A stretch of 30,207 nt of DNA, taken from positions 1 through 30,207 of the IMG/VR virus record IMGVR_UViG_3300042402_004331, one strand, 5' to 3'. Shown here one piece after another: positions 4,700 to 20,417 of the stretch (position 1 is its first letter; each line of letters begins with the position of its first letter). The DNA comes from a virus. The position numbers and the translations under genes were made by a program. The notes under the pieces were generated by a model. That model did no database searches. It saw only the letters and a list, made by a program, of their open reading frames with translations, and had not been told where the DNA came from.

Positions 4700-4755
4700 C
4701 TAAAAATCCCCCTTTTCCTTGCTATGATTAAGAGGCAGTTTTAATTAAATACTAC

Positions 4756-4797
4756 GCATTGGTTTAATTGCATTGGTTTAATTGCATTGGTTTAATT
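4756..4797. repeat. Three perfect tandem 14-bp repeats upstream of the tape measure gene
   Basis: The unit GCATTGGTTTAATT occurs three times head to tail with no mismatch, followed by a partial fourth unit. It lies in the 163-bp gap between the tape measure gene and the 4863-5387 gene, just beyond the hairpin at 4805-4842. It could be a protein-binding array or simple slippage; nothing in the sequence decides between them. Confidence 0.9.
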
Positions 4798-4804
4798 GAA
4801 TTGT

Positions 4805-4842
4805 AACAATAAAACCCCAAGAATACCTGGGGCTTTATTGTT
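4805..4842 (-). terminator. Long hairpin, probable terminator or attenuator
   Basis: Arms AACAATAAA and TTTATTGTT enclose a GC-rich inner stem (CCCCA/TGGGG) with a short AT loop. The outer A/T arms make it look like a bidirectional intrinsic terminator. It follows the stop of the 4863-5387 gene by about 20 nt and would reduce or stop minus-strand transcription before the tape measure gene, which may then need its own promoter in 4700-4804. Confidence 0.65.
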
Positions 4843-4862
4843 CTCCCTACTTGTTAGGGAAA

Positions 4863-5387
4863 TTAATTGATTGGAAACGAAGACATCTCAGCGTTTAATT
4901 GCTCTATCTGCTGTTTGATTTCCCGAAACCGTGATTCATTCAAGGACGAGGCGTTATGGACATTCCCCTTAACAGACACTTGAATCCCCCCTAATAGTAA
5001 AGCAATCTTCTGATCTCCAAATTGTTTCCCAATCTGGTCTGCGGCTTGTTTCAATAGGGCAATCTTTTCTAGGATTTCAGTGGAGGATCTTTCTTCTGAA
5101 GGGAGAGCTTCAACTGCGGCAATCCGTTTGTCGATAACCGCCACTACTAACTTTGCCACAAAATCGACAATCTGATAAGTGTCAATCAATGGGTAAACAT
5201 ATCCCTCTGAGGAGTAGAAGAAATGTTCGGGGATTGAGGGACAGACAGCTTTTAAGGTGTTGCTAATTTTATTAAGCGACTCCGCGCTAGTGAATCCATC
5301 TTTTGTGCCTTCTATAGCCCAATTCAACATAAAATCCACAGGTTTTTCCAGGGGATACTCAACACCGTCCAATACAATAGAAGCCAT
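4863..5387 (-). CDS. Unknown phage protein, tail-assembly-chaperone candidate
   Basis: A 174-residue soluble protein with no signal peptide or membrane segment. The N-terminus begins with a short beta-type stretch (ASIVLDGVEYPL), the middle is helical, and the C-terminus is charged helix. I do not recognise a family. In many long-tailed phages the one or two genes just before the tape measure gene encode tail assembly chaperones, and this gene holds that position. That is positional inference only. No clear slippery site or second overlapping frame typical of the gpG/gpGT pair was found at its 3' end. The start ATG at 5387 has only a weak upstream purine tract (AGGA). Confidence 0.6.
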   Translation of the reverse strand: MASIVLDGVEYPLEKPVDFMLNWAIEGTKDGFTSAESLNKISNTLKAVCPSIPEHFFYSSEGYVYPLIDTYQIVDFVAKLVVAVIDKRIAAVEALPSEERSSTEILEKIALLKQAADQIGKQFGDQKIALLLGGIQVSVKGNVHNASSLNESRFREIKQQIEQLNAEMSSFPIN

Positions 5388-5510
5388 ACATTTTAATCCT
5401 ATAATTTCTTAACTATTCTATCAAAAAATTGGTATTATTGGAAAATTCAAACAATTCACCAGAAAGGATGTGAAATTAGTGGGCTGTTTATTCTGATTGA
5501 CCTATTAATT

Positions 5511-6316
5511 TCAGTTCCCTTGCCTAACTACAGAATAGATAAAATCAAACATTTCTGGATCGTTCTTGGCTAGGTAAATGGGGTTTCTGTACATCAATTC
5601 CAGCCCCATTGATAATACTTCTGTCCCGTAGGTATACACTTTCCCCATATAAGGATGTAACCATTTATCAACTTTCGTTATTTCGCTTTTACTATAGCCC
5701 CGATTACCCGTCGCTTCTTTTAATGAAACGGCTGACTCCCCTGCGGTTCTTTTGTTGTAAAAATTCAACACTTTTCGACTAACTGTATTATTATTCCATT
5801 CAAGCCAATGCCCCATTTCATGTACTACCGTCGCTATAGAATTGTCGCCGGGAGCTATTACAACCCCTCCTGTATATTTCCCGTATTTTTCCTTTTAAGC
5901 CTATCTTTTATTGTGGGATCATCAGTTTTAATCTTGCAGCTTTTCATGATGTTAATACAGGCTTTCCCACAGTTATAAGCTGTTGGCTTAACACACTGTG
6001 GCTTCTTATTACCTCCTATCCCCGCATCTACCCGATAGGAGTAGCCACTAGAGAACTCCTCCCAGTCATCTACGCTATCCATCCGTCCTGGGGTATAAGG
6101 TTTAAAGGTTACTGACTGCCCTTTGATATTAAATGAAAAAATACGGGGACGGGTTGCATCCTTGAATTTGCCTTCAAACTCCCCTTGATCGTTTACCGAA
6201 AAATCCAACATCACCACCGGAGCATTATAGGCAAATGGTTGAGACAGAGTTTGGGCGATCGCCAACTTCATCTGTGGCTCGGTTGGTGTGGCATCTTTTC
6301 TAGTCGTTGAACTCAT
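5511..6316 (-). pseudogene. Shared N-terminal Cys domain fused to HExxH metallopeptidase, broken by a -1 frameshift
   Basis: The first part (6316 to about 5895) encodes the shared N-terminal domain, with Cys108, Cys116, Cys120 and Cys127 in the YNCGKACI motif. That frame then ends at 5858. The -1 frame opens at about 5895 and runs to 5511, encoding a compact zinc peptidase domain: GGVVIAPGDNSIATVVHEMG, then HWLEW, giving HEMGH as the zinc-binding helix. A downstream TEVLSMGLEL supplies a likely third glutamate ligand, and the C-terminus is rich in DPE and FDF residues. This pattern resembles metallopeptidase domains at the ends of phage MuF-type proteins. The paralogue at 8371-9693 has five A residues (CTTAAAAAG) where this gene has four (T run 5893-5896 on the plus strand), so a one-base loss restores the frame. 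Either a sequencing error, a real mutation, or less likely programmed slippage. The peptidase domain is short for its type and may lack its N-terminal part. Confidence 0.8.
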
Positions 6317-6327
6317 GGTTAAATCTC

Positions 6328-8277
6328 CTATACTTCCTCAGCTTCAACAATAATCCGTCCGTTTTCTTCCTTGACACTTTTAACTCGATGGCGAGTGTCT
6401 TTTAGCACCATAACTTCGTCTTCTTCTTTGATCCTGCTCAAATTCCTAATAGACACACCTGATTTATTAATGGTTTTAATGACGACGGGATACCTTTTTT
6501 CCTCAATAAAGAAATCGTCCGAAAAATTCTTTGCTGTTTTAAGGCTAGATGACCAAGAGGCGTGAGCACCTTGATTATCTAGCACCCCATCCTTGTCGCC
6601 TTTAGTCCAGTTTAAAGCCTCCTCTTTGGTTGCAAAATGAATCCCTCGGTAAACTTCGCCTTCGTATGGGGTTGAGTTCCTGACATAATTAGAAATCCGA
6701 TTGGCATCCTCGTTTTCTTCCCCTGCTTTTTGATCAACTCGGATGTCAGTGGCATCCCTTGTCCATTTATAGATGGCTGTAGTGGTGGCTGCTGCCTCCT
6801 TCTTAGAAATATTTACCCCTGCTTTTTCCAGTGCTTCACGATACTCATCGGGGGTTGAGGGCATGGATTCGTGGTCGCCCTTCCCTACTAAATTAAGGTT
6901 TTTAGGTTTTTCTTCGGGTTGTTTAACCGCCTTTTCCTCGGATTCTTTTTGGGTTTTAGTTATTTCTGGTGATGGTTCAGGCATTTTCTTTTCCTTGTTA
7001 GGAGAAACTTCTTCTGTCTCAACGATCAAAACACCATCTTCGTACACAACCTTTTTAACCCGATGGCGAGTGTCTTTGATGACCACTACCTCATCTTCCG
7101 TATCAAAGGTGCTTAAATTTTTGATAGAGGCACCTGACTTATTAATTGTTTTGATAATGATAGGTTGTGATGTCTCATCGAACGCATTGTCAACAGCAAA
7201 TTCTCTCGCTTTATCCCAATTAGAAGTCCAAGAGGCGTGGGCATTTTGATTGTCCAATATTCCGTCTTTGTCTCCTTTTGCCCACTCCAGTGCTTCTTCT
7301 GTTGATTCAAGGGAGATGCCTCGGTAGATTTCACCTTTGAATGGCGTTGAACTCTTGACGTAATCAGTGATCCGGTCGGCAACGAGGCTGTATTCCCCTG
7401 CTTTTTGAGATTCTCTAATATAAGAGGCATCTTCTGTCCACTCTTTAACGGCTCCGGTAATCTTTATAGCATCGTCATAAGAGATGGGATTACCCGATGC
7501 TTTCATTGCTTCAAAGTACCCGTATGCGTCGCCAGGAACGGACTCATGATCCCCCTTCCCTACTAAATTAAGAGGCTTGGGTTCGTTTTCAGGTTCTTTA
7601 AGGGTTTCTGTTTGATCTTCACTCTTTACAGCTATTTTAGCAGCTTTCTTCCCTTCTTCAAAGTCAGATTCTTTCCCTTTTTTGCTAGGGGGAATTTCCT
7701 TTATTGTTTCTGGGATTTTATCTATTTCTGGTGGTTTTTCTACCTCTTTCTTGGTTTTTGTAGTTGATTTAGGATTGGATTTCTTGGCTTCTTTAGCGTA
7801 ATCAATACCAGCAGCTTTCAATTTCTCTAAACGATCCTTTGACTGAGCGTCATCGGGGTTTGATTTACAATTATTATTAATATTTATACAGGCTTTCCCG
7901 CAATTATATGCGGTGGGTTTAACGCATTGGGGTTTCTTTTTGTCTCCTGCCTTGCCTTTTGCCTTAACTCCTTTAGCTTTAGCATCAAAACGGAAGGAGT
8001 ACCCTAAAGAAAACTCCTCCCATTGTTCTACTGCATCGCCCGAATCCATCCGTCCTGGGGCGTAAGGTTTGAAGTTAACGGTATTTCCATCTAACTCAAA
8101 ATCAAACACCCTCGGACGGGCAGAATCCTTAAATCTCCCAGATATTTTACCCGTGTCATCTACCTTAAAGTCCAACACGTCCACTGGGGCGTTATAGGCA
8201 AAAGGAAGAGCAAGAGTCTGGGCGATCGCTGCTTGCATTTGTGCTTTTGTTGGGGCTGATTTAGTCTCTATGCTCAT
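6328..8277 (-). CDS. Shared N-terminal Cys domain with two tandem ADP-ribosyltransferase domains
   Basis: 649 residues. Residues 1-150 are the shared domain, with Cys118, 126, 130 and 137. A Lys/Glu/Pro-rich linker (about 160-235) follows. ART domain 1 spans about 236-425 and ART domain 2 about 460-649, joined by another charged linker. Each ART has a helical lobe, then YRGI (Arg319; Arg544), an STS-like block (SWTS at 349-352; SWSS at 574-577) and an ExE loop (E394-D-E396; E619-D-E621). These are the R-S-E catalytic elements of arginine-type ADP-ribosyltransferases such as the PF03496 exoenzyme family. The two copies are clearly homologous (GKGDHES, GDKDG, LDNQ-AHASW repeated). They would transfer ADP-ribose from NAD+ to a host target; the target is unknown. 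Phage ARTs such as T4 Alt are packaged and modify host RNA polymerase, a plausible but unproven analogy. Confidence 0.88.
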   Translation of the reverse strand: MSIETKSAPTKAQMQAAIAQTLALPFAYNAPVDVLDFKVDDTGKISGRFKDSARPRVFDFELDGNTVNFKPYAPGRMDSGDAVEQWEEFSLGYSFRFDAKAKGVKAKGKAGDKKKPQCVKPTAYNCGKACININNNCKSNPDDAQSKDRLEKLKAAGIDYAKEAKKSNPKSTTKTKKEVEKPPEIDKIPETIKEIPPSKKGKESDFEEGKKAAKIAVKSEDQTETLKEPENEPKPLNLVGKGDHESVPGDAYGYFEAMKASGNPISYDDAIKITGAVKEWTEDASYIRESQKAGEYSLVADRITDYVKSSTPFKGEIYRGISLESTEEALEWAKGDKDGILDNQNAHASWTSNWDKAREFAVDNAFDETSQPIIIKTINKSGASIKNLSTFDTEDEVVVIKDTRHRVKKVVYEDGVLIVETEEVSPNKEKKMPEPSPEITKTQKESEEKAVKQPEEKPKNLNLVGKGDHESMPSTPDEYREALEKAGVNISKKEAAATTTAIYKWTRDATDIRVDQKAGEENEDANRISNYVRNSTPYEGEVYRGIHFATKEEALNWTKGDKDGVLDNQGAHASWSSSLKTAKNFSDDFFIEEKRYPVVIKTINKSGVSIRNLSRIKEEDEVMVLKDTRHRVKSVKEENGRIIVEAEEV

Positions 8278-8360
8278 GTTTTTGTTCTTCCTTTTGCTTC
8301 AGAATTATCAAGACCTGTATTGCCGCAGTTATAGGAGGTAGGTTTTCGCGCTGGGTTTTT
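8274..8360 (-). pseudogene. 29-codon remnant of the shared Cys domain
   Basis: In the gap between two family members, one minus-strand frame without a start codon reads RKPTSYNCGNTGLDN and then stops, overlapping the next gene's ATG as ATGA. KPTSYNCG matches the KPTAYNCG core of the family, and the SYNCG spelling is closest to the 16141-18753 member. It is best explained as the debris of another copy lost by recombination or deletion. Too short to be functional. Confidence 0.65.
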
Positions 8361-8370
8361 TCATTCGATT

Positions 8371-9693
8371 TTAATTGTCAGGCTTTATTTTTTTTGCGTA
8401 AGCTCTTAGTCCTGCCCAATTTGTGCTGACAGAATCCTCGATTTTATCAGCAGCACTATCCTCTACACTCCCTTCCATTAATTGATATTTATCGTTCTCC
8501 TGCACCTTGATCATTAATTTATTAAAATCCCCCCTACTAACTTTATCGCCCATAGCTCGTCTAATTTGATATATTGGAACGAGGTTGTCATAATTATTCT
8601 CCTTGTTTAATTTGTCATAAACCGTGTCCGCCAACTTCGAGAATTCCTCAATATCAACAATTTGACCGGGCTTTCTTTTTGTCTCTTTTTCTGCTTTTTC
8701 TATAGCTTTCTCATCAGTAAATCTTATAAAGTTTTTCTCTCCAAAACTGGTCTTAATCCCATCTTTGTAAGATTTGTTAGGATCTCCCCCCATCATTTGT
8801 ATGTCATCGTTATCTAACTGGCTATCCATCATCCACTTGTCAAAATCTTGATCGGAAATCCGACCCTTTAGCTCTTTTCTAACTCTTTCTATTGGAAGAA
8901 GTCCGTCATAATTATATTCCATGTTGATTCGAGCTAATTCTTTGGGTATTTCCTTTTTAAAGGTGTCATAATCCTTTATTGGTTCGTCACTATAAAATGG
9001 ATTTGCCTTGGATTTAGGACTAGATTTAGCTTTGGGTTTAACTTCGGGCTTTGGCTCGATCTTGGCTTCTGGTTCTGCCGTTTTCTTTGTTGCCAATTTT
9101 TGACCAGTAGGCTTTTTACTCTCTGCTTTAGGCTTGGTTTGGGGCTTTTCTACAGTCGTTTTTGCTGTTTTCGCGTAATCTTTCCCAATTCCTTCTAACT
9201 TTTTAAGCCTGTCTTTTATTGTGGGATCATTGGTTTTGATTTTGCAGGTTTTCATGATGTTGATGCAAGCTGCACCACAGTTATAGGCTGTCGGCTTAAC
9301 GCATTGAGGCTTTTTTTTGCCACCTACTCCTGCATCAACACGGAAGCCATACCCTGCTGAAAATGCCTCCCATTCTTGGACATCTTCCTCTGATTCTAAG
9401 CTGTCCATTTTGCCAGGTTTATAAGGCTTATAGGCTACAGACTCCCCATCTAGGGTAAAGGAAAACACCCGTGGACGTGCCGCATCTTTAAATACTCCGG
9501 TAATATTGCCATTCTCGGCAACATCAAATTTAAGCACAACAACTGGGGCGTTGTAAACAAAATCCATTGACAAGGTTTGGGCAATAAGTAACCTCATTTG
9601 AGCTTCGGTTGGTGCAGTACCTCCGCCACCATCCCCAACTAATACTTCATCTTCGTCAACACGGAACAAAGAACTTGGTTTTGTTTTTAACAT
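8371..9693 (-). CDS. Shared N-terminal Cys domain with two winged-helix-like repeats
   Basis: 440 residues. An extra 25-residue leader containing GDGGGG precedes the shared domain (about 27-155; Cys131, 139, 143, 150). A Lys/Pro-rich linker (about 175-230) follows. The C-terminus holds two related repeats, about 241-325 and 348-437. Each begins with a helix, then NYD-LLPIERVRKEL or NYDNLVPIYQIRRAM, then S-x-DF-K-M and a terminal strand region. The second ends in DKIEDSVSTNWAGLRAYAKK. This pattern resembles a winged-helix-like domain seen in uncharacterised cyanobacterial proteins (recollection, not searched). No catalytic residues were recognised, so the cargo may bind DNA or protein. The nucleotide sequence of the Cys region is very close to that of the 5511-6316 gene, indicating recent duplication. 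Confidence 0.82.
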   Translation of the reverse strand: MLKTKPSSLFRVDEDEVLVGDGGGGTAPTEAQMRLLIAQTLSMDFVYNAPVVVLKFDVAENGNITGVFKDAARPRVFSFTLDGESVAYKPYKPGKMDSLESEEDVQEWEAFSAGYGFRVDAGVGGKKKPQCVKPTAYNCGAACINIMKTCKIKTNDPTIKDRLKKLEGIGKDYAKTAKTTVEKPQTKPKAESKKPTGQKLATKKTAEPEAKIEPKPEVKPKAKSSPKSKANPFYSDEPIKDYDTFKKEIPKELARINMEYNYDGLLPIERVRKELKGRISDQDFDKWMMDSQLDNDDIQMMGGDPNKSYKDGIKTSFGEKNFIRFTDEKAIEKAEKETKRKPGQIVDIEEFSKLADTVYDKLNKENNYDNLVPIYQIRRAMGDKVSRGDFNKLMIKVQENDKYQLMEGSVEDSAADKIEDSVSTNWAGLRAYAKKIKPDN

Positions 9694-9718
9694 GATTTTA
9701 CCTTTTATAAATAGAAAC

Positions 9719-9751
9719 CTTGTGAGTTAATCACAAGTAAAAACCTTGTGA
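9719..9751 (-). repeat. Near-duplicate 3' end with two competing hairpins
   Basis: TCACAAG (9731-9737) can pair with CTTGTGA at 9745-9751 or with a second CTTGTGA at 9719-9725, giving two mutually exclusive 7-bp stems. The cause is a near-duplication of AAACCTTGTGAG-TAATC at 9715-9732 and 9741-9758. The structure covers the stop codon of the 9731-10150 gene and the leader of the next gene, so it may affect their coupling. Confidence 0.6.
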
Positions 9752-10150
9752 GCTAATCTTCTCAACTAACTCCATGTCCCACGTCACGATATTTTTAGTT
9801 AGTGAGACTAAGTTACAAACAACTCCATCGGGAGGGTAAAATGTGGTGTCTGCTCCGACAATATAGTCAACCCCCTCACCCTTCAATTGTTCTTCTAAAT
9901 AACGCCGTGAAATCCCTTTGACGGAATAGGATTTAGTTATTCCCTCCACTGAGCTTAGATTTTCAATCCCTTCCTTACTTGGGAATTGATCTTGAATAAC
10001 CGGAGATGGGGTAATCTCCAGATACTCGTAATCATTGCCCAATCTTGTGCGAACGACAAGGCTTCGAATATTGGGATTGCCAAATCCCCCCGCGAGAGGG
10101 GAGATCCGGTCTCTTAGGGCTATCATTTGCTCAACAAAGGATTGACTCAT
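9731..10150 (-). CDS. Unknown phage protein, neck or tail-completion candidate
   Basis: 139 residues, soluble, no recognised motif. Its ATG (10150-10148) overlaps the stop of the preceding gene as ATGA, indicating translational coupling within the head-completion cluster. It contains a central beta-rich segment (DYEYLEITPSP) and a C-terminal strand-rich half that mentions GADTTFYPPDG, a style common in small neck or tail-terminator proteins. Position after the DUF4054 adaptor gene favours a head-tail joining role (inference). The last codons are duplicated just downstream at 9715-9732. Confidence 0.65.
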   Translation of the reverse strand: MSQSFVEQMIALRDRISPLAGGFGNPNIRSLVVRTRLGNDYEYLEITPSPVIQDQFPSKEGIENLSSVEGITKSYSVKGISRRYLEEQLKGEGVDYIVGADTTFYPPDGVVCNLVSLTKNIVTWDMELVEKISSQGFYL

Positions 10151-10332
10151 TTCTTCTCTTTGGGAGTATAAGCAGCCTGTGGGTGGTCTGGCTTGTCTAA
10201 CTTCTTATTGATTTCCTGTAACTCAACATAAATTGCTGCCATTGCTTGCAGTTCTGGCGAGGCAGGAGCCGCTATTCCAGCAGAAGTAACTCGACCATTA
10301 TCAACGGTGAAATCAGGGAACTGTACTTTCAT
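10147..10332 (-). CDS. Small phage protein of unknown function
   Basis: 61 residues from ATG 10332, beginning MKVQFPDFTV. The frame is open further upstream, but ATG 10332 overlaps the previous stop as ATGA (TGA at 10331-10329), which decides the start. The C-terminal half is a single predicted helix (SPELQAMAAIYVELQEINKK) followed by a Lys/Pro-rich tail. It is coupled on both sides by 4-bp overlaps. No family recognised; probably a minor head-completion component. Confidence 0.65.
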   Translation of the reverse strand: MKVQFPDFTVDNGRVTSAGIAAPASPELQAMAAIYVELQEINKKLDKPDHPQAAYTPKEKK

Positions 10333-10664
10333 AAAACTAAAATAGGGGGAGTGAAGATAGTATTGCGGAGGTGGATGTATTGCCTCCCGTAAGTTGTCAA
10401 AGACCAATCATTCTCGGAGCCAGAAGGGGTAGAACTTCCTGGCCCGGATGCGATTCCCGTGACACTAGAGGCAATATCCGCCTGTTGAAACCAATCAATG
10501 CTGATTCGATGGGCAGCAATCAACATAATTCCATCCGTTCTCTTGGGATCTGCCCAACCAGCACAGTAATTATTCTCGGCAAAGTTTAAACTGTATTGAA
10601 TCACAGAAGATTCGACTACAGCGAACTGAGGATAAACCGCTAAAAAATCGGAAGGGAGAACCAT
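10329..10664 (-). CDS. DUF4054-type head-tail adaptor
   Basis: 111 residues. The pattern FLAVYPQFAVVESSVIQYSL, then a conserved AAH (in IAAHRISIDW), and a C-terminal YGRQYIHLR match the layout of DUF4054 phage proteins, small helical adaptors bound under the portal. The family usually follows a DUF2184 capsid gene by one or two genes, exactly as here. The gene begins 3 bp after the 10668-11147 gene and overlaps the next gene by 4 bp. Confidence 0.75.
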   Translation of the reverse strand: MVLPSDFLAVYPQFAVVESSVIQYSLNFAENNYCAGWADPKRTDGIMLIAAHRISIDWFQQADIASSVTGIASGPGSSTPSGSENDWSLTTYGRQYIHLRNTIFTPPILVL

Positions 10665-10667
10665 TTA

Positions 10668-11147
10668 TTACCCACGGATGTTCATAGTATTGACCGATTT
10701 GATATTCTTGACTTGCTCCGCTATTGCCTTAGAAATAGCGGGACGATCTTCTCTTTTCTCGGATCGTTCTAGCCAATCAATATCACTAGAATTGCGAATT
10801 AGATCCAGGGCATCTTTTTCAATATAATCGAGGGTTGTTTCAGTAGGAAACTTCCCTTCCTCTAGGGTGGGAGAGATTACTCTGAATGCTCCGCAATTAA
10901 CAAGTTGCAATCCGAGGGGATGCCGAACAATATAGTCATAGTCCTCGTCGGGAAGCTCCAAATTAGTCCCAGGCAGAATCCAACTCCCCCGTGTTTCCAC
11001 CGCATCCAACGAGGTTTTTTTGGTTCCCCCACGAGTAATAGGACGGGAGAAACGGATCGGCGAAGTGATAGCCTCCACTGATATTCCATAGGGAATGCGT
11101 GGATTGTGAGGATTTAGCTTTGGGTCAAAGATGATAGTTTTAGACAT
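10668..11147 (-). CDS. Unknown phage protein next to the major capsid gene
   Basis: 159 residues, starting 2 bp after the capsid gene stop. The first two thirds look beta-rich with many prolines (FDPKLNPHNPRIPYGISVEA; SPIRFSRPITRGGTKK), followed by LPDEDYDYIVRHPLGLQL and a charged helical C-terminus. The segment with LPGTNLELPDEDYDYIVRHP resembles a short fold seen in phage proteins of unknown role, but I cannot name the family. Position suggests a head-completion or capsid accessory role (inference). Confidence 0.65.
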   Translation of the reverse strand: MSKTIIFDPKLNPHNPRIPYGISVEAITSPIRFSRPITRGGTKKTSLDAVETRGSWILPGTNLELPDEDYDYIVRHPLGLQLVNCGAFRVISPTLEEGKFPTETTLDYIEKDALDLIRNSSDIDWLERSEKREDRPAISKAIAEQVKNIKSVNTMNIRG

Positions 11148-11149
11148 TT

Positions 11150-12103
11150 TTATTCGGGTAATACTACAATGTGCATGGAGAATGGGCGTTTGAGGTCAAT
11201 TCCCCCAAACTTAAACTTGGCACCACGCCAGAAAGAATCAACACCAATGGGACGAGTATCAGTCCACTTTAATGGTTGATAAATCTTAGCAGAGACTTTT
11301 TTGGGATCTCGACGGAAAGCCTGAATAAAGCGGGTAGGAGCCAAACCAATCGACTCTAAATATTCGGGAGCCATCTCGGACACCACACCGACTTCTTTGA
11401 TGTTGGAGTTGACTTTTAAGAAGTGTTCTAACACCGTGCGATCTAAGGCAGATGTACCAATTTGAATGATATCCGAGGAGAGGTGTTCGTAAGTTTCCGA
11501 ATCCATTAACAATGTGTCAGGCTTCTCTCGGTTATTGGTCAACCGAGTCGGAGCATTAACACAATCATTTAACACGCTCAGCTTTTGCTGTGATGTTGCA
11601 GACCCGTTTAAAGGGAAGGGAGCATAAGACCGCAGGGCTTGGGGGTGATTTAGAAACCCTGGCATCCCTGTTTCTAAATCTCCGTTTGCCACCAACTGAT
11701 TGATTTTTTGTTGTGCGGCTTCTTGAATTGTCCAGATTTTGTCCTCCTCAATGCTCTCGCCCATTCGACTGACAGCCGCGATATCATCCTCGGAAACGCT
11801 ATAACCTTGTCCCCATTTATGGATCGGCATCTTCATCTCGCCATAGACCAGTTCCACTTCGGGAAGGTCTGTGGTGTAGTTTCGGATTAATTTGAACTGC
11901 CCGACGTGACGGAGCCACCGATATCCCCAGGTTTTTGCCCAGGGCTTGTTTTGGATATTGAGAGGGCAAATGACTCCAGCAGCGAAAGGATAGTCCGCAA
12001 GATCGAACTCCTTATCTACTTGAGCTTCTAAGTCCATCAGGGTGCCAAAGAACGTCCCGATTTCATCAGCATCCAACCTTGTAGTCCCGGAAAAGTTCAT
12101 CAT
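11150..12103 (-). CDS. Major capsid protein (DUF2184 family)
   Basis: 317 residues. The middle matches the DUF2184 capsid pattern: a strand pair around TTDLPEVELVYGE, then IHKWGQGYSVSEDDIAAVSR, a long helix with QEAAQQKINQLVANGD, and the typical GMPGFLNHP loop. The C-terminus (PIGVDSFWRGAKFKFGGIDL) is beta-rich, as in HK97-fold capsid subunits that close the axial domain. It would assemble into the icosahedral shell. It lies in the expected order: protease, cement protein, capsid, adaptor. Two adjacent ATGs (12103 and 12100) are possible starts; the upstream ribosome site is weak. Confidence 0.85.
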   Translation of the reverse strand: MMNFSGTTRLDADEIGTFFGTLMDLEAQVDKEFDLADYPFAAGVICPLNIQNKPWAKTWGYRWLRHVGQFKLIRNYTTDLPEVELVYGEMKMPIHKWGQGYSVSEDDIAAVSRMGESIEEDKIWTIQEAAQQKINQLVANGDLETGMPGFLNHPQALRSYAPFPLNGSATSQQKLSVLNDCVNAPTRLTNNREKPDTLLMDSETYEHLSSDIIQIGTSALDRTVLEHFLKVNSNIKEVGVVSEMAPEYLESIGLAPTRFIQAFRRDPKKVSAKIYQPLKWTDTRPIGVDSFWRGAKFKFGGIDLKRPFSMHIVVLPE

Positions 12104-12122
12104 AGTTTAAGTTCTTTCTATA

Positions 12123-12953
12123 TTAAGGAACATTGAAGCCGATTAAAACGCACACCGCGCCAGTGCTAGTGACCACAGGGGAACATTTGAACTCAGCCTT
12201 CGCGGAGATATTAATTGTACCACTTGTCACTTTTGTTGCTTTCCCCTCGTGTCCCGCAGCAATAGAGACGTAGACGGCATCATTGATTGTGATATCCGTC
12301 TCAACACATTCAACCCAGATCCCTGACGATTCCCCTGTCCGGTCAACCACGTCCATCACATCCTGATAGGGGTAAGTTGTCCCACTATAGTTTGCACCTT
12401 GATAAATCAAAGGTTGCATTTCGATGTCTTTGACGATTCGAGTAATCCCTAAGATTACGTCAGTGGTAGCAGTAGGAAGTCCTGCAACTTTGGGGTCGGT
12501 TTCGGTGTTTGCTCTGGCAACAAACCGACCGAATGGTACGGGGAGAGGAATAATCATCGCCGTGGTTACAGTTGCCGTTAAACTAGCACCAGTAACTACC
12601 AGGATGTTCTCGATACCATATTCCAGTGCCGTGAATAGCACGTTATTCCCACTAACACTTGCAATCCCCCGTCGCCCAAAAGCAGGGTTTACTCGGATTG
12701 CATTCAATAAACCAGCTTGCAGTTCCGCTTGAGTGGCACTAGCATCGGTTGTAAAACGTGCCGTGCCTAGTCCGTTGTTTAACCTGACGGTATATACAGT
12801 GCTAGAAGCAGGGGAGGCAGGAATCGCCAGAGTCCAGACCTCTTTAACAGCATTCTTTACAGAAACAAGGGCTTTGACTCTCGGAAAATTAATGGATCCC
12901 TCGCCCATGCCAGGAGTCGCCCGATCAAATTGAAGATTGTAGTTGTACCGCAT
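12123..12953 (-). CDS. Capsid structural cement/decoration protein
   Basis: 276 residues. The N-terminal tail (RYNYNLQFDRATPGMGEGSI) and the C-terminal half, with G-x-V and strand-rich blocks (YPYQDVMDVVDRTG, NDAVYVSIAAG, GAVCVLIGFNVP), fit the structural cement proteins that reinforce DUF2184-type capsids. Residues about 45-125 look like an inserted beta domain (TVYTVRLNNGLG, TQAELQAGLLNAI, SGNNVLFTA) that also occurs in the plus-strand gene at 23301. The ATG overlaps the protease stop by one base (TAATG). Cement proteins bind the outside of the mature shell. Confidence 0.7.
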   Translation of the reverse strand: MRYNYNLQFDRATPGMGEGSINFPRVKALVSVKNAVKEVWTLAIPASPASSTVYTVRLNNGLGTARFTTDASATQAELQAGLLNAIRVNPAFGRRGIASVSGNNVLFTALEYGIENILVVTGASLTATVTTAMIIPLPVPFGRFVARANTETDPKVAGLPTATTDVILGITRIVKDIEMQPLIYQGANYSGTTYPYQDVMDVVDRTGESSGIWVECVETDITINDAVYVSIAAGHEGKATKVTSGTINISAKAEFKCSPVVTSTGAVCVLIGFNVP

Positions 12954-14533
12954 TATCTAGTAACCCCCATGCGTGTTTTTCCTATCGTTAAAGGCTGCTT
13001 ATAGGCGTGCACCCGTCGTCTTTCCCCTTCGGTGAGTTCATCTCCGTGGGTAGATTGAGCAGGTCTTTTGAGCATCGAATCAAGGCGATGGGAAAACTCC
13101 TCTGAGTCTCCATCGTCTCCATCGTCTCTATCTTCTTCCTCCTCGTCATCCCCTTCTTCTTTATCACCTGGATCGGTGGGGGAAGAATTACGATTCTCCT
13201 GAACGTAGGCAAAAACCCCGTCTACATAAGAATCGGATCGGAACGTCAAGTCCATATTGGGTTCGATTTCAGCTAACAAAGTGCGTTTGATGTCGCTAAT
13301 AGAGAAGCTACTATCAAACCGAGCGTCAGAGAACCCTGGCAACAAACTGTCGGCTTCCTTCCATATCGCCAAAAGATCCCCGACCGAATCACCCCGACAA
13401 GCACTCTCATCTTCGTCGTTGCTATCAACACGAGGCTTGGACTTTTTTTTCTTTTTGGAAGTCGTAGTTTCTTCTTCCTCTGCAACATCCCATTCTTCCA
13501 TCATTTCTTCTTCTTCATTGTCCTCCTCTTCCATCATTTCTTCATCTTCGGGAACGGGAGGCATCATTTTCTTTTTGCCTCCATCAACGCGGACGTACTG
13601 CCCCATGTCATTCCGGTAATAACCTAATTCACCAAGGACATTATCGGCATTGTCTACGATGATCTCTAGGTTATCTAACCGGAACTGGTAATTTTCCCGT
13701 GCGGCTTCTAGCTTCCGGTTCTCCCGACTCGTAGTATCAAACCGTGTAACAAGCGAATCGTGGCGTTCCTTTAATTCTTTCAATTCACGGAATCGAGTAC
13801 CGCTAATGGAAGCGAAAGATTCAGGGATTCCTGAATACTCAACTCCATCGCATCTAACTATTGCCATACGCTGTTCATTATCTCCATTATCATTGGTTTT
13901 GTTAGGGTTGCTAGGGTTTTCGATGACTTGCCCTGCGATAGCTTGCCCTGCGACAGCTTGTCCTGCGACAGCTTGCCCTGCGACAGCTTGCCCAATCCCC
14001 GCAGCACTATCTAATCGGAGGCGAACATCTCCCCCTGCCCTTCCTCGGCTCGTCAAAGCCAAATGGTTGGCACGGACATTAATCTGTTCCCTGTCATAGT
14101 GTTGCCCATTCCACACCCCTTCCCCTTGCTTGATGTCGCAGGTATATCCAGCAGATAGTTGTTCCTTTTCCCTTGCATCAATTAGGGCGATCGCCTTAGC
14201 ATCAAAAAACGACACCAAGCCTTTGATCACCCCTTCAGTCTTGTCATAATAAGCAGAAGAATCAGTCATCCCTACCGTGTAATCCTTGTAGCTTTCGCTA
14301 TTAAGAAGTCCAACATAGGGATGTTCTATCACCAGGGGGAGGAGTTTGAAACTCTCTACTGTGGCCAGTTCTGCATTGGTTTCCGGTCTCCTGAGTTCGT
14401 GGACTATGGAGCCATCAGGCTGACGATACTCCAACACCCCGTCACAACAAAAAGACCCCTCACAATGGAGACGACCATCCTCAGTTCTTATTACCCTAAA
14501 TTTAGTTGGAGCATCGAGCCTGATTTCAACCAT
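12953..14533 (-). CDS. DUF2213 prohead protease fused to scaffold-like region
   Basis: 526 residues. The N-terminal 170 residues match DUF2213 peptidases of the HK97 prohead protease type: His71 in LVIEHPYVG, Ser127 in EQLSAGY, and NHLALTSRGRAGG near 156-168. A repeat linker (about 181-204, units of GQAVA) separates it from a second half with a coiled coil (about 238-290), very acidic runs (about 320-355 and 455-490) and Lys-rich segments, typical of scaffolding domains. It would guide capsid assembly and then be cut away by its own protease. It opens the capsid gene run, downstream of a divergent promoter shared with the HTH gene at 14666. Confidence 0.82.
   Translation of the reverse strand: MVEIRLDAPTKFRVIRTEDGRLHCEGSFCCDGVLEYRQPDGSIVHELRRPETNAELATVESFKLLPLVIEHPYVGLLNSESYKDYTVGMTDSSAYYDKTEGVIKGLVSFFDAKAIALIDAREKEQLSAGYTCDIKQGEGVWNGQHYDREQINVRANHLALTSRGRAGGDVRLRLDSAAGIGQAVAGQAVAGQAVAGQAIAGQVIENPSNPNKTNDNGDNEQRMAIVRCDGVEYSGIPESFASISGTRFRELKELKERHDSLVTRFDTTSRENRKLEAARENYQFRLDNLEIIVDNADNVLGELGYYRNDMGQYVRVDGGKKKMMPPVPEDEEMMEEEDNEEEEMMEEWDVAEEEETTTSKKKKKSKPRVDSNDEDESACRGDSVGDLLAIWKEADSLLPGFSDARFDSSFSISDIKRTLLAEIEPNMDLTFRSDSYVDGVFAYVQENRNSSPTDPGDKEEGDDEEEEDRDDGDDGDSEEFSHRLDSMLKRPAQSTHGDELTEGERRRVHAYKQPLTIGKTRMGVTR
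13927..13993 (-). repeat. 15-bp coding repeats encoding a GQAVA linker
   Basis: Four nearly identical 15-bp units (CTTGCCCTGCGACAG on the plus strand) plus a partial fifth encode the pentapeptide repeat between the protease and scaffold halves. Unit number probably varies by slippage. Confidence 0.9.
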
Positions 14534-14555
14534 TTCTCAATACAAAAAACAAATA

Positions 14556-14630
14556 ATTCTTTTTAAAGAATAACGCACCCTATCAGTCATTTGAAGAGGG
14601 TGTAAAAAAATAATTTCTATACAAGAAAAT
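14556..14630. promoter_or_regulatory. Divergent regulatory region with three inverted repeats
   Basis: The 132-bp gap between the divergent protease (minus) and HTH regulator (plus) genes contains three inverted repeats: ATTCTTT-TT-AAAGAAT at 14556-14571, CACCCT-N15-AGGGTG at 14576-14602, and TTTCT-ATACA-AGAAA at about 14614-14628. The last lies inside a sequence of more than 20 bp repeated at 19724-19747. They are plausible operators for the adjacent regulator. No convincing -35/-10 pair could be fixed. Confidence 0.5.
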
Positions 14631-14665
14631 AGACTAAAATTAAATCAATGATTTAGATATAAATA

Positions 14666-15040
14666 ATGACTATTACAAAAAGAGAGTACCCTTCTAAGAA
14701 AACGTTAGGATCTGGTGCATTGGCTCCCTATCGCGCTCTCGGTCGGTCAATTCGACGGGATCTTATAAATGCAAATCTTGGGATGATGGAATTTAGCGAG
14801 AAAAGTGGGTGGGATTGGCAGACAATTCGACGGATTTTAATGGGGGAGCGGCGGACGGATTTTATAGAACTGTTGATTATCGCTTCGTTAATTTCTGAGG
14901 ATCAATCGGAAACGGAAAGACTGATCCTCACCTGGACGAAGGAAACTTTGAAAATCATCGAGGAAGGAATCCCCCAAGAAATTAACCCAGGTCTTGTTGA
15001 TAATCTTGTCGAGATTAACGAAGAGAACCCTTTAGAATAG
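14666..15040 (+). CDS. Xre/Cro-type HTH regulator
   Basis: 124 residues. Residues about 25-78 form a helix-turn-helix of the Xre type: LGRSIRRDLINANLGMMEFS, then a recognition-helix segment WDWQTIRRILMGERR, then FIELLIIASLI. The rest is an acidic helical C-terminus, perhaps for dimerisation. It is transcribed against the surrounding structural genes, diverges from the protease gene, and overlaps the end of the 15015-15434 gene by 26 bp tail to tail. The start ATG has no clear ribosome site. It probably controls phage genes through operators in 14556-14630 (inference). Confidence 0.75.
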   Translation: MTITKREYPSKKTLGSGALAPYRALGRSIRRDLINANLGMMEFSEKSGWDWQTIRRILMGERRTDFIELLIIASLISEDQSETERLILTWTKETLKIIEEGIPQEINPGLVDNLVEINEENPLE

Positions 15041-15434
15041 CAATAATCTCCTGACGATTCCGTTGGCTTACTCCTAAAAATTGACGTTTAGGCATTTTCT
15101 TGGTGCCTTTTTGTAAATAGGAGCCATAGGGCAATGGAGTCCCTACCTCAACCCTTCCTTTTTCAATCCGATATCGAATAGAAGATCGCAACAATCCTTG
15201 GCGTTGTAGTATTTGCATAATAAAACCCCGACTAGCCTTGTATTTAAGGGTTGATGGGGCTAGGTGTTCCCATTTCTCCCCGTAAGGACTCTGTTCCTTC
15301 TGGAAGTTCTCATCGGTTGATGCCACCATAAACTGCCCGACTTTATGCAGTTCAGGTGTGAGGTTCTGAAACTTTCTGATTAATTTATTGAGGTAATTTT
15401 GGACTTGGTTGGTAACGAATTTTAGAGTTAGCAT
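15015..15434 (-). CDS. Phage virion morphogenesis/tail completion protein (gpG/gpS-like)
   Basis: 139 residues. The pattern matches the Mu gpG/P2 gpS family: helical N-terminus, then SPYGEKWEHLAPSTLKYK, a L-RQGLLRSSI block, VGTPLPYGSYLQKGTKK, and MPKRQFLGVS near the C-terminus. These small proteins finish the tail or join it to the head. Its 3' end overlaps that of the HTH regulator gene. It sits upstream of the protease and capsid genes in transcription order, an unusual position for this family. Confidence 0.8.
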   Translation of the reverse strand: MLTLKFVTNQVQNYLNKLIRKFQNLTPELHKVGQFMVASTDENFQKEQSPYGEKWEHLAPSTLKYKASRGFIMQILQRQGLLRSSIRYRIEKGRVEVGTPLPYGSYLQKGTKKMPKRQFLGVSQRNRQEIIAILKGSLR

Positions 15435-15486
15435 GGGGTTAAGAGTAGCATATATCCCATACTAACCTGTTAAACAAATTTGATGT

Positions 15487-16014
15487 TTAGCCCTCTAATA
15501 AAAACTGCTCTTGTTCCCTGATCACTCTCCAATCATCGTTGTTTGCATCGAGGGCTTCTTGTAAGTCTTCCATAGTCCATTTGCTATAGTGGACTATTTT
15601 TTCTAACAGAAAGTCCAACGATTGCCGTGTGAAGACTTTTTCCAATATGTCATCCAACCCCGTCTCGGCAAACGCAGCCAACAAAATAATGGAATCTTGA
15701 TTATTGTTAACTACTGCATCCCATGTGATTAACTTCGTAAAGTCTCTGGATGAGATAGTCTTGCTTCGTGTCGCACCTCTGGCTATCTTAACCTCAGTGT
15801 CTTTTGTGCGACCTGTGAAACCCATACCCTGTAGCTCTTTGAGGGCTTTAGACTCCGTTTTCTGCAACCTGCCCAAATACTCTTTACTGTGTCCAATAGC
15901 AATACTCGCACCACCGATTCCGATCCGTTTCTCCCCGTCTGGGAACAAATAACAGTCAATACTTCTGTTGCCTAATACCATTTCGGCACGGATTGATCGT
16001 ATAATGTCTGACAT
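15487..16014 (-). CDS. Conserved-looking protein of unknown function
   Basis: 175 residues. Start ATG 16014 is supported by AAGGAG 10 nt upstream. The N-terminal half contains FPDGEKRIGIGGASIAIG and KALKELQGMGFTG; the C-terminal half has ISSRDFTKLITWDAVVN and a helical end with LLEKIVHYSKWTMEDLQEAL. I recall similar sequences in cyanobacterial genomes as uncharacterised proteins, without a known role. No enzymatic motif is visible. It is flanked by a strong hairpin upstream (16049-16080), suggesting a separate transcription unit from the 16141-18753 gene. Confidence 0.65.
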   Translation of the reverse strand: MSDIIRSIRAEMVLGNRSIDCYLFPDGEKRIGIGGASIAIGHSKEYLGRLQKTESKALKELQGMGFTGRTKDTEVKIARGATRSKTISSRDFTKLITWDAVVNNNQDSIILLAAFAETGLDDILEKVFTRQSLDFLLEKIVHYSKWTMEDLQEALDANNDDWRVIREQEQFLLEG

Positions 16015-16048
16015 AGTGAACCATCTCCTTGAAAGCGTTGGTTTACAA

Positions 16049-16080
16049 GCCTCTCGTAGTGCGTAAACACCGCGAGAGGC
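16049..16080 (-). terminator. GC-rich hairpin between two genes
   Basis: GCCTCTCG at 16049-16056 pairs perfectly with CGAGAGGC at 16073-16080. It sits after the stop of the 16141-18753 gene and before the 15487-16014 gene. On the minus strand it is followed by TTGTAAAC rather than a clean T run, so it could be a weak terminator or an mRNA-stabilising structure. Confidence 0.5.
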
Positions 16081-16092
16081 AATTATTATTAA

Positions 16093-16098
16093 ATTATA
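16093..16098 (-). promoter_or_regulatory. Candidate -10 box for the 15487-16014 gene
   Basis: A perfect TATAAT on the minus strand, about 80 nt before the ATG at 16014. No good -35 element was seen at the right distance. The hairpin at 16049-16080 would fall in the 5' leader. Confidence 0.3.
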
Positions 16099-16140
16099 TC
16101 ATTTTTACTTTGGACGAACAGAAAATAAATTTGTCCTTGA

Positions 16141-18753
16141 TTAAATTTCTTCGGTTTCTACATAGAATATGCCATTTTTCTCAGTAACACTCTTAACTTT
16201 GTGCTTGGCATCTTTTGAAACAATAACTTCCGATTCTTGAGGCTTTAGTCCTACATCCTTAATTGATACCCCCGTCTTGTTTTTTGCCTTGATAATAACA
16301 GGATAAGCTCCTTCTACATATTGAGACAAAGATGGATTTTCTTTGTAGCTAGCTTTTGAAAAATCATAAGCTACTTTGTCATCAGAAGTCCATGAAGCAT
16401 GAGCTTTTTGGTTGTCTAAAACGCCGTTTTCATCCCCTTTTAACCACGTCTCAACTTCTTCTCTACTATTAAAAAGAATCCCTCTACTTACATCCCCATC
16501 ATAGGGTGTCATGCTTTTCATGAACCTATTGATATTTTCCTCGTTTTTATTTGGCCTCCCATCTTTTTGATCGTCTCTGACCTCATCGGAGTCTGTGATC
16601 CATCTTTTGACTGATTTAATGATTTTCTCAGCCTCCTCTATAGTAATGTTTTCCCCTTTTTTAACCATCGCCTCGTAGTATTCTTGTGCGTTTTTAGGGG
16701 TTCCTTCGTGGGTTCCATCTCCTATTAATTTAGGAGTCTCTTTGACGATTTCCTCTTTCGGGACTAAGGGGGATTCTTGTGGCGATCGCACCTCCTGAAC
16801 TTTTATTGTTTTCTGTTTTACTGCCTTTTGTTTTACTGCCTTTTGTTTTACTGCCTTTTGTTTTACTGCTTTCTGGGATTTGAGGGCATCAGGCTTTAAG
16901 TCATTAGGGGAACTATCAGAATCATCTACTTTGTAACGTTTACCATCTCGGATGACATGAGTAATGTCTTTCATTGGAGTCTTAGACTCAAATGCGTTTT
17001 GTTGACCGCTATATTGCTTTTTAGCCACAACATTCGTGACAGCAACCTTGGTTACTTCTCCCCCTTCCCTGATGTTGTACCCAGTAGGAATATTATTATT
17101 TCCCGAACTCCCCATAGAGCCATAGGTGTTTTCTTTCACCAACAATTTATCCCCTGGGCTTAAAGTTTTCTTTAATTCACTGCGCGGGATATTGCCAGAT
17201 AAAGGTGGGGGAAGTTCGTAATTATTCTTAATTATTGATTCTATTTTACTTCTTTTTTCGGTATATTCTGGGCTGTCGTAAAATTCATAACTGTTTTTAT
17301 ATTTCCCTTTCAATGACCCCATATAAGCCATTACTTCGGCTTCTGTTTCAAAGTCGCCATTGACCGCCTTCTGTCTTCTCTCGTTAAAGAATTGCTCCGC
17401 TTCAATAACGGGTTTATATTGATCAATATGTTCCTGATAACGTTTTTCATATCCTGGCGGGACTGTTCCACTTGCCTGTGCTGCTAAATATCGCTCATAG
17501 GTTTGTTTTTTGTAATCCAAAGTGCCGGATAAAGCCTCTGCTATAGCTTCCTCTGTTCCCTTTGGATCTTTAGAACTGGCAATAATATCCTTATATTGTT
17601 GATCAACCGATTTACCCCCCGCACCCTTAACCCCTGTTGAATCTGGGGATGGTTTGGGGTCTTCAGGTAGTGATAGACCTTTCCTTTTTCTTGACTCCTG
17701 AGCCCTTTCTTCAATCCGAGTATTTTCAAATTCTTCTGTAATTTTCTTTCTAGTCTCAGGGTCTAGTTTTCTAAGTCCTTTCTCTGTAACATTTTTAGAT
17801 TCTAAAAAGTCAGACCATTTTTTGTCAGCATTAATTGTTGTTTGACTTGGTTCTTTTTTCTGATCTTTTAGTTGACCGCCTGACAAATTAATTTTAATTT
17901 GTTTCCCATTATTTAAAAGGTCGTTAATTCTTCCCCCTAATTCTTTGTCAACAGATACAGCATTAGACCCTCCTAGTCCAACAGCTTCTCTAAGTCCGTT
18001 AATTCTAGCTACAGCAGTGGCGTGGGGGATTTGATATAAACTAGCGATAGACCGAGATGATAAACCTTCTGCTTCATTTTTTAGTCCGTTTTGATACTGG
18101 TGGTATTTTTGATAAGCTGTTTCTGCTAAACTTTTATTTAACTCATTTTCCGCGATAGCTTTCTTTAGTGTATCGCGCATTTTATCTTCGTTCGCTAGTG
18201 TCGGTTTTGTTTCCGGTGGCTTTGGAGTTAATTTATTATCTTCTTGCTTCTTGGTTGGATCATCCTGAACGGCTTTAAATTTCCCTGCTGCGGCTCTGAG
18301 TTTATCGACTTTTTCTTGGGAGGGTTTATCCGGTAGATCTGATTTGCAGTTTTTATTCAACCCAATACAGGCTTTGCCACAGTTATAGGAAGTATTGCCA
18401 CACTTAGGTTTTTCCTTCCTCTTGGTTTTAACTGCGTCATACCGATAGGTGTACCCTTTAGAAAATTCTTCCCACACCACTGGATCGATATCCGCGCTGT
18501 CTATTCTTTTCCAGGTAAACGGCTTAAAGGTAATGGAATCCCCAATCTCAAACTCAAAAACACGGGATCTAATGGCGTCCTTAAACCGTCCTTTGATGAT
18601 GTTTTTGTTGCCTACTTCAAAATCCAGAACGATAACCGGAGAGTTGTAGGCAAATGGCATCGACAAGACTTGAGAAATACCAAGTTTCATCTGCACTTCT
18701 GTTGGGGCAGCATCAAAGCTAGGGGGATTTTGACGGTTTAAGGTAGTGACCAT
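16141..18753 (-). CDS. Giant modular protein: shared Cys domain, multi-domain middle, C-terminal ADP-ribosyltransferase
   Basis: 870 residues. The shared domain spans about 15-140 with Cys118, 125, 129 and 136. The middle is long and varied: a HTH-like segment (about 228-260, LSSRSIASLYQIPHATAVAR), charged helical regions (about 300-360 and 385-510), and a Gly/Val-rich beta segment (about 530-610). A linker of AVKQK repeats (about 628-650) leads to one ART domain (about 675-870): SRGIL (Arg757), SWTS (787-790) and E840-S-E842, the R-S-E triad. The ART is clearly related to the two in 6328-8277 (THEGTP versus DHESVP; LDNQKAHASWTS). Residues beside the Arg differ (VSRG instead of IYRG). Predicted to ADP-ribosylate an unknown target; the middle domains may bind nucleic acid or the virion. 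Confidence 0.85.
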   Translation of the reverse strand: MVTTLNRQNPPSFDAAPTEVQMKLGISQVLSMPFAYNSPVIVLDFEVGNKNIIKGRFKDAIRSRVFEFEIGDSITFKPFTWKRIDSADIDPVVWEEFSKGYTYRYDAVKTKRKEKPKCGNTSYNCGKACIGLNKNCKSDLPDKPSQEKVDKLRAAAGKFKAVQDDPTKKQEDNKLTPKPPETKPTLANEDKMRDTLKKAIAENELNKSLAETAYQKYHQYQNGLKNEAEGLSSRSIASLYQIPHATAVARINGLREAVGLGGSNAVSVDKELGGRINDLLNNGKQIKINLSGGQLKDQKKEPSQTTINADKKWSDFLESKNVTEKGLRKLDPETRKKITEEFENTRIEERAQESRKRKGLSLPEDPKPSPDSTGVKGAGGKSVDQQYKDIIASSKDPKGTEEAIAEALSGTLDYKKQTYERYLAAQASGTVPPGYEKRYQEHIDQYKPVIEAEQFFNERRQKAVNGDFETEAEVMAYMGSLKGKYKNSYEFYDSPEYTEKRSKIESIIKNNYELPPPLSGNIPRSELKKTLSPGDKLLVKENTYGSMGSSGNNNIPTGYNIREGGEVTKVAVTNVVAKKQYSGQQNAFESKTPMKDITHVIRDGKRYKVDDSDSSPNDLKPDALKSQKAVKQKAVKQKAVKQKAVKQKTIKVQEVRSPQESPLVPKEEIVKETPKLIGDGTHEGTPKNAQEYYEAMVKKGENITIEEAEKIIKSVKRWITDSDEVRDDQKDGRPNKNEENINRFMKSMTPYDGDVSRGILFNSREEVETWLKGDENGVLDNQKAHASWTSDDKVAYDFSKASYKENPSLSQYVEGAYPVIIKAKNKTGVSIKDVGLKPQESEVIVSKDAKHKVKSVTEKNGIFYVETEEI
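16801..16875 (-). repeat. 15-bp coding repeats encoding an AVKQK linker
   Basis: Four near-perfect units (TTTTACTGCCTTTTG on the plus strand, starting at 16816, 16831, 16846, 16861) and one degenerate unit at 16801-16815 encode a basic pentapeptide repeat just before the ART domain. It is probably a flexible, length-variable hinge. Confidence 0.9.
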
Positions 18754-18805
18754 TGTTTTTGAGAATAGATTTACCGAGTCTTTCTGTACGGGTGCAGGTC
18801 GGGGT

Positions 18806-19030
18806 TTACCAGTCTTCCGGCCCTTGAGCTACAAAACGTTTGGCACGTTCGCGTTTTTCCTCTTCTGTCAAATCGTCATAACTTCTTTTTGGATATTTCT
18901 TAGCCATTCTTTCATCAAATTCCTGCAATGTCTCCCCTTCCCCTAAAGCATCCTCATCTTCGGATACAACAGCAGGAGGAACGGTTTTAATTTTCTTTTG
19001 TCCTTCAACAGCAGTTTTTTTGGCTTTCAT
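18806..19030 (-). CDS. Small charged protein of unknown function
   Basis: 74 residues. The N-terminus is Lys-rich and the rest strongly charged (EDEDALGEGETLQEFDERMA; DDLTEEEKRERAKRF), probably helical. It ends 52 bp before the 16141-18753 gene. A TATAAT lies upstream on the minus strand at 19063-19068, but no clear ribosome site precedes the ATG. No family recognised. It may be a small virion or accessory protein. Confidence 0.5.
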   Translation of the reverse strand: MKAKKTAVEGQKKIKTVPPAVVSEDEDALGEGETLQEFDERMAKKYPKRSYDDLTEEEKRERAKRFVAQGPEDW

Positions 19031-19080
19031 AATTGATTTTCGTTTTTAATGCTAATAGGTCTATTATACTTTGTTTTTGC

Positions 19081-19212
19081 TTAATTAAGTTTACTTCTAC
19101 CAATATCAAAATGTGCTTGGGCGATCGCTAACTTCACCTGGATTTCTGTTGGCGGAGCATCGAATCTTAATTTTGTCCATAAAGTACAGATGTCATCTTT
19201 TATACATAAATC
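19081..19212 (-). pseudogene. Startless remnant of the shared N-terminal domain
   Basis: A minus-strand frame bounded by stops, without a start codon, contains RFDAPPTEIQVKLAIAQAHF before ending at TAA 19081. PPTEIQVKLAIAQ is an obvious match to the opening of the family domain (PTEVQMKLGISQ in the adjacent gene; PTEPQMKLAIAQ in 5511-6316). A HIP1 octamer sits in the LAIAQ codons, as in two intact members. The homology ends after about 20 residues, so this is a truncated copy. Confidence 0.75.
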
Positions 19213-20130: not shown

Positions 20131-20143
20131 ATTCAGTGTGATC
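20131..20143 (+). repeat. Distal copy of ATTCAGTGTGATC
   Basis: An exact copy of the 13-bp core that recurs at 20387 and 20402, here about 245 bp away and followed by GGACACA, which weakly pairs with TGTG. Confidence 0.75.
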
Positions 20144-20373
20144 GGACACAACAGTTGCTATATACCCATACCCCAATACAACTCAGTAACTACATAGCGT
20201 TATAACCATATAGCTACTTGGTTATTTAGTAAAACATTCAAAAAATTGCTGTAATCTTTATGGGGGGCTTTATCTAGCCATTATAAAGGAATTCTTAAAA
20301 TGGTATCAAGTTATGATACAAACAACGAGATAATGGCTGTCACACCAAAACATAATAGAAGATTAATAAAAAA

Positions 20374-20417
20374 CACTGTGATCAAAATTCAGTGTGATCA
20401 AATTCAGTGTGATCACA
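20374..20417 (+). repeat. Clustered iterons with a TGTGATCACA palindrome
   Basis: GTGATC cores recur at 20378, 20394 and 20409 (spacing 16 and 15 bp). Two full ATTCAGTGTGATCA copies begin at 20387 and 20402, and the last forms the perfect palindrome TGTGATCACA at 20408-20417. Regular one-and-a-half-turn spacing suggests cooperative protein binding: an operator array upstream of the 20612 gene, or replication iterons. Confidence 0.65.

Follow-up and report, generated by a model that had tools for sequence, protein, structure and literature searches.

Why does a single stretch of viral DNA carry, among its capsid and tail genes, several genes that begin alike and end differently? The question is raised by the virus record IMGVR_UViG_3300042402_004331 (IMG/VR), whose 30,207 bases are referred to here as the window. 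A first-pass annotation, made from the letters of the window, had described four genes and two remnants that share an N-terminal domain of about 130 residues with exchangeable C-terminal payloads, and had suggested that this domain loads the proteins into the virion or delivers them. With a probability of about 0.72, we read the shared piece as a virion cargo adaptor that sets exchangeable effectors inside the particle for injection. The capsid protein of the window shared 98.4% identity with its counterpart in Planktothrix phage PaV-LD, and the gene order was as in PaV-LD (portal, small genes, neck, protease, capsid, connector genes, tape measure); judged by these features, the window represents part of the genome of a PaV-LD-like Planktothrix phage. 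In the following, A–D denote the adaptor genes of the window, L numbers the compared loci or contigs and G numbers genomes. All window features are on the minus strand.

Four open reading frames (ORFs) of the window carried the shared domain: gene A (5858..6316), gene B (6328..8277), gene C (8371..9693) and gene D (16141..18753). In the six pairwise comparisons their heads were 46–68% identical, and since the E values ranged from 1e-72 to 2e-40, the sharing is not due to chance. The relationship described earlier was confirmed for the four genes and the remnants, and the motifs described with it were present. The domain is not a single unit of about 130 residues, however; it comprises two parts with a total length of about 150 residues, first an alpha/beta head and then a basic module with four cysteines (Cys module). 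Behind these two parts, gene A had no in-frame payload. Gene B encoded two ADP-ribosyltransferase (ART) repeats (R / SW[TS]S / ExE; PF01129, E 6.5e-6, over the cut-off) and gene D a long linker and one ART, as previously noted. In gene C, where the first Cys is residue 131, the two winged-helix-like repeats of the earlier description were modelled as compact helical units with short strands (predicted local distance difference test score, pLDDT, 84.6). This payload type is known from the structure model; PDB matches of the model were weak (best E 0.03) and mostly to winged-helix proteins, many of the top ones included.

An alignment of 29 close relatives contained 32 invariant columns, including all four Cys (C-x6/7-C-G-x2-C-I-x5-C), which were kept in 29 of 29 sequences. 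The Cys module had a mean charge of +5.8 over approximately 34 residues, whereas random stretches taken from these proteins averaged +0.8. The predicted structure of the domain (pLDDT 73.7, predicted template modelling score 0.70) consisted of a helix, four strands and a helix, then a poorly predicted linker and, in the C-terminal part, a three-stranded Cys mini-domain with a long helix. Head and Cys module had no Pfam or NCBIfam match; the NCBIfam search gave a single ART-like match, far below the cut-off. A sequence search of the PDB returned no match of weight, a fold search of the PDB with the predicted structure returned none below E 0.1, and a PADLOC search for defence systems found none. 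The two parts also occurred apart. Solo Cys modules without a head preceded zincins in PaV-LD-like phages (intact in L010 6548–7654 and L008 8932–10110), and headless Cys modules were also found in Synechococcus phage S-CBWM1 and behind lambda-type portals.

Payloads were exchanged behind near-identical heads. Head identity reached 85% or more in 465 protein pairs, and in 108 of these the payloads had no BLAST similarity (E<=1e-3); the pairs are not independent, because near-identical contigs recur. The reverse case, heads less than 50% identical with homologous payloads, was represented by 35 pairs. Gene C shows one such junction: its head was 95% identical to those of its counterparts in L012, L009 and L014, which carry an ART payload in place of the winged-helix-like one. 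At the DNA level, gene C was 97–100% identical to L012 and L014 across the 5' flank and the head, and from the Cys codons on the identity dropped to approximately 40–70% and soon to background. A direct mosaic, with a gene B-type head and a gene A-type Cys part, was found at L014 3119–3568. The coding sequence of head and Cys module may double as a recombination arm.

The main argument that the domain is part of the virion comes from portal fusions and from payload families common to the free and the fused forms. In L086 (cyanobacterial genome G312), L096 and L097, a Mu-type portal (PF06074, E<=1e-112) was followed in the same protein by head, Cys module and payload. In L104 and L111, a lambda-type portal (PF05136, E<=1e-112) was followed by Cys module and payload. 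The latter two proteins were 89.7% identical over 582 residues of portal and Cys module, yet their payloads differed, being GNAT/ART-like in one and ParB-like in the other. Free and portal-fused proteins had ParB (55% identity over 332 residues) and DUF3626 (65% over 723 residues) payloads in common, and the winged-helix-like repeat of gene C recurred in the portal-fused L086 protein (43% over 63 residues).

A profile search that listed the C-terminal partners found many payloads behind one head, in virion operons. Pfam identified ART, GNAT, DUF3626, ParB_N, alpha/beta hydrolase, DnaJ and RIO/APH kinase domains, with several of these matches below the curated cut-off. InPase was also matched but, unlike the other Pfam-matched domains, sits N-terminal of the head. 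Zincin payloads (HExxH) were recognized by PHROG and by motif and stood in frame in the relatives L008, L012 and L018, while ParB-like and JAB-like (HNHP) domains were read from the sequence. In a motif search of the ART repeats, the R and SW[TS][ST] motifs were each present in 31 of 31 repeats and ExE in 26 of 31. Proteins carried one to three ARTs, and L083 combined InPase, head and a JAB-like domain, so that several effector domains can share one polypeptide. In S-CBWM1 (L092), the Cys module directly preceded a RIO-type kinase and an HNH-like protein (gp084 and gp091; L092 15602–16564 and 11974–13581), the HNH reading being made from sequence only.

Two further arrangements were observed among the relatives. 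The module profile matched CL131 gp048 (L091 20670–26138; 1823 residues) at five places, which alternate with alpha/beta-hydrolase-like domains; the Cys motif was complete in four of the five. In L105, a head-only ORF (4330–4614) and an ORF for Cys module and zincin (4542–5915) overlapped in different frames, and ten consecutive A stood at the junction; the same overlap was seen in L106, L107 and L108. Programmed slippage is a possible explanation, as is a homopolymer error common to these near-identical contigs.

The adaptor genes occupied fixed positions. In PaV-LD-like phages, slot 1 lies between the portal gene (or the adjoining ORF058) and the neck gene, and slot 2 between the capsid/connector genes and the tape measure gene; CL131 uses slot 2. 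PaV-LD ORFs 061R, 065R and 078R–085R were homologues of the adaptor proteins in the same slots. Copy number and payload set differed between close phages. In the window, slot 1 contains gene D and is bordered upstream by the portal gene (21214..23208; PF06381, E 2e-46) and downstream by the gene for a neck/tail-completion protein (15015..15434). Slot 2 is bordered upstream by the major capsid protein gene (11150..12103; PF09950, E 8.9e-27) and downstream by the tape measure gene (2..4699), a homologue of PaV-LD ORF088R. The portal protein of the window has an InPase domain of its own at the C-terminus (PF18823, E 3.9e-26), without an adaptor, and is a further portal with an enzymatic payload. 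Between the portal gene and the ORF058 homologue lies an AT-rich region without long ORFs (approximately 20140–20410, minus-strand reading), in which GATCACACTGAATTT occurs three times.

Decayed copies were found beside the intact ones. Both remnants listed in the first-pass annotation could be located, one being an N-terminal stub of the head (19081..19167; 28 residues beginning RFDAPPTEIQVKLAIAQ... and then a stop) and the other a decayed solo Cys module (about 8313..8364; KPTSYNCGN readable, frame broken). Approximately 261 bp around the stub were kept at 88–100% in five other loci. A third fragment has to be added to these, since the metallopeptidase counted earlier among the window's payloads is not one: gene A stops at 5858, and the C-terminal zincin remnant (HEMGHW) at 5511..5816 (PHROG 33618 positions 286–386, E 1.4e-48) is in another frame. 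In L010 9109–10704, the same zincin region stands in frame behind a head. Window 5480–6340 matched L010 2801–3248 at 97.5% up to base 448 and L010 10322–10738 at 99.8% from base 445, which indicates that approximately 7 kb are missing between the two matches. Gene A is accordingly the product of a deletion of about 7 kb, which brought together a head and a zincin tail from two different adaptor genes without keeping the frame. The same junction is present in L014, which argues against an assembly error.

The domain search returned 123 matches, with 55 representatives, in PaV-LD-like loci, and six of the seven long phage records had 8–10 matches each when solo Cys modules and fragments were counted. 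Distant relatives were found in Nodularia, Aphanizomenon and Synechococcus phages, in cyanobacterial genomes and on other contigs; a profile of the cyanobacterial-genome and Nodularia sequences matched the PaV-LD profile with 97.2% probability (E 3.6e-11). A fold search of viral models recovered PaV-LD proteins, Nodularia phages kac65v161 and 2AV2, and A0A2H4PAQ8, which we take to be CL131 gp048. Sequence profiles independently confirmed the domain in kac65v161, 2AV2 and CL131. The 386 cyanobacterial genomes searched contained two clear matches (G312, G283), weak matches and one remnant; a broad cyanobacterial spread was rejected on these numbers, which point to a phage rather than a host family. 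A plasmid search gave no match. In a GTDB genome scan with the close profile, the only trace was a remnant of approximately 390 bp on Planktothrix rubescens plasmid p2 (LR882960.1; L049/L088), comprising an adaptor start and the upstream gene. This plasmid was considered as the carrier of a PaV-LD-like prophage and rejected, the match amounting to about 390 bp within the 17 kb read. A Cys-like stretch in Pseudoalteromonas phage C5a (E about 0.1) was not accepted.

How such an adaptor might work can be outlined. During head assembly it would put the effector inside the particle, the free adaptor proteins docking to the portal, the inner head or the packaged DNA, while in relatives the adaptor would be part of the portal itself. 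The effectors (ART, peptidase, acetyltransferase, ParB-like, DNA-binding-like and others) would then pass into the cell together with the DNA, to act there on targets of the host. The conserved stretch that encodes head and Cys module would also act as a recombination arm, so that payloads could be replaced. The earlier suggestion of loading or delivery is supported by the variety of payloads in virion operons and by the portal fusions; the free adaptor proteins, too, are probably packaged into the virion. Some of the observations weigh against the adaptor reading. Payload-less heads and broken copies occurred often, from which it follows that some copies do not matter to the phage. Position in a structural operon, taken alone, fits late-expressed proteins that stay in the cell equally well, and the lambda-type portal fusions have the Cys module without the full head. 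On balance, we lean towards an undescribed, mostly cyanophage adaptor with at least nine effector types, found with two unrelated portal families, whose effectors would be injected and whose payloads would be swapped by recombination within the adaptor coding sequence.

A variant of this model, which we regard as possible but doubtful, would make the Cys module a nucleic-acid-binding and perhaps zinc-binding tether to the packaged DNA, with a minor role for the head. The four invariant Cys and the strongly basic character agree with it, and so do the headless Cys modules before payloads in several phages and after lambda-type portals, although common zinc fingers space their Cys differently, the PDB searches gave no match, and the head is also conserved, which would be needless for a spacer. 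A structural or scaffold-like role as minor head proteins, with C-terminal domains that mostly decorate or stabilize the particle, is unlikely. Unrelated enzymes swapped at one locus are unexpected for a structural part, the ART active-site residues are kept, and close phages differ in copy number and in their set of payloads; the site among head genes, the portal fusions and the PHROG label 'minor head protein' on part of the family would suit such a role. We give slightly less credence to a function in host takeover or superinfection exclusion, by late-expressed proteins that remain in the infected cell and whose head binds a host target and is no packaging signal. ART, GNAT and kinase payloads would act in the producing cell as well, but the domain is fused to portals of two unrelated families, which for those phages at least makes it a component of the particle, and the position in head/connector slots is strict. 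That the head is a very divergent MuF and the proteins ordinary MuF toxins is hardly credible: slot 1 lies downstream of the portal, as do MuF genes (PMC5576092), and PF04233 was absent from the window, PaV-LD, G002 and G003 and a MuF gene likewise from the Nodularia phage, but neither window nor family proteins had a Pfam match to MuF, the predicted small four-stranded sheet with helices and Cys mini-domain had no PDB match, and a separate MuF gene beside the adaptor in G312, G393 and G394 (all with Mu-type portals) and in CL131 argues that the adaptor domain is not MuF, as had been proposed from the sequence of the window.

Most proteins of these cyanophage head operons are annotated as hypothetical, and the adaptor offers a handle with which to search them. 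Whatever follows it becomes a candidate injected effector, and this in phages of bloom-forming cyanobacteria, for which little is known about the proteins of early host takeover. The adaptor further points to a packaging solution apart from MuF, and is a natural candidate tag for loading a reporter into a phage particle. Since payloads are exchanged behind near-identical heads, and the breakpoint in one case coincides with the Cys codons, the idea of polymorphic cargo can be tested directly in close phages. In CL131 virions, 23 proteins were found by liquid chromatography–tandem mass spectrometry (PMC6293099). Annotations of the PaV-LD homologues go no further than hypothetical, minor head or virion structural protein, and their payload order differs from that of the window. 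In the literature searched, neither the adaptor nor its fusion to portals nor an exchange of payloads at the Cys codons was found described, which is not proof of novelty.

Phage-packaged modular effectors are already known as a kind. Adaptor proteins resemble MuF polymorphic toxins (PMC5576092) in the constant N-terminal domain near the portal, the variable C-termini with ART and metallopeptidase toxins, and the presumed delivery from the phage head. They differ in a head unrelated to MuF, in many copies per phage, in their occurrence behind portals, in non-toxin payloads (GNAT, ParB, winged-helix-like) and in the use of slot 2 between capsid and tape measure besides the MuF-like slot 1. The polymorphic-toxin layout seen by the first-pass annotation holds for the constant N-terminus and exchangeable C-terminus; in the window, neither C nor B is followed by an immunity gene (the C–B gap is 93 bp, part of which is taken up by the decayed Cys module, and the B–A gap 11 bp), so the term does not apply in its strict sense. 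Polyvalent proteins of phages and conjugative elements (PMC5512222) are likewise encoded in virion operons and presumed to be injected; they combine ART, zincin, ParB-like and InPase domains, and effector fusions to MuF and portal have been reported for them. Pfam has no model for the adaptor head or the Cys module, and Planktothrix, cyanophage and cysteine go unmentioned in the main text of that study. ARTs fused to MuF, portal or other head proteins have also been reported (PMC9503650). T4 internal proteins carry a capsid-targeting sequence, and T4 shares with the adaptor system head-packaged proteins of which one, gpAlt, is an ADP-ribosyltransferase (PMC9958956), whereas the T4 signal has approximately 10 residues and no payload exchange behind a constant domain. 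In P1 DarB, an N-terminal piece also sends the protein into the capsid, the first 30 residues sufficing to bring in a reporter (PMC9024508); the DarB signal is short and belongs to one protein, whereas the adaptor is a folded domain common to many payloads.

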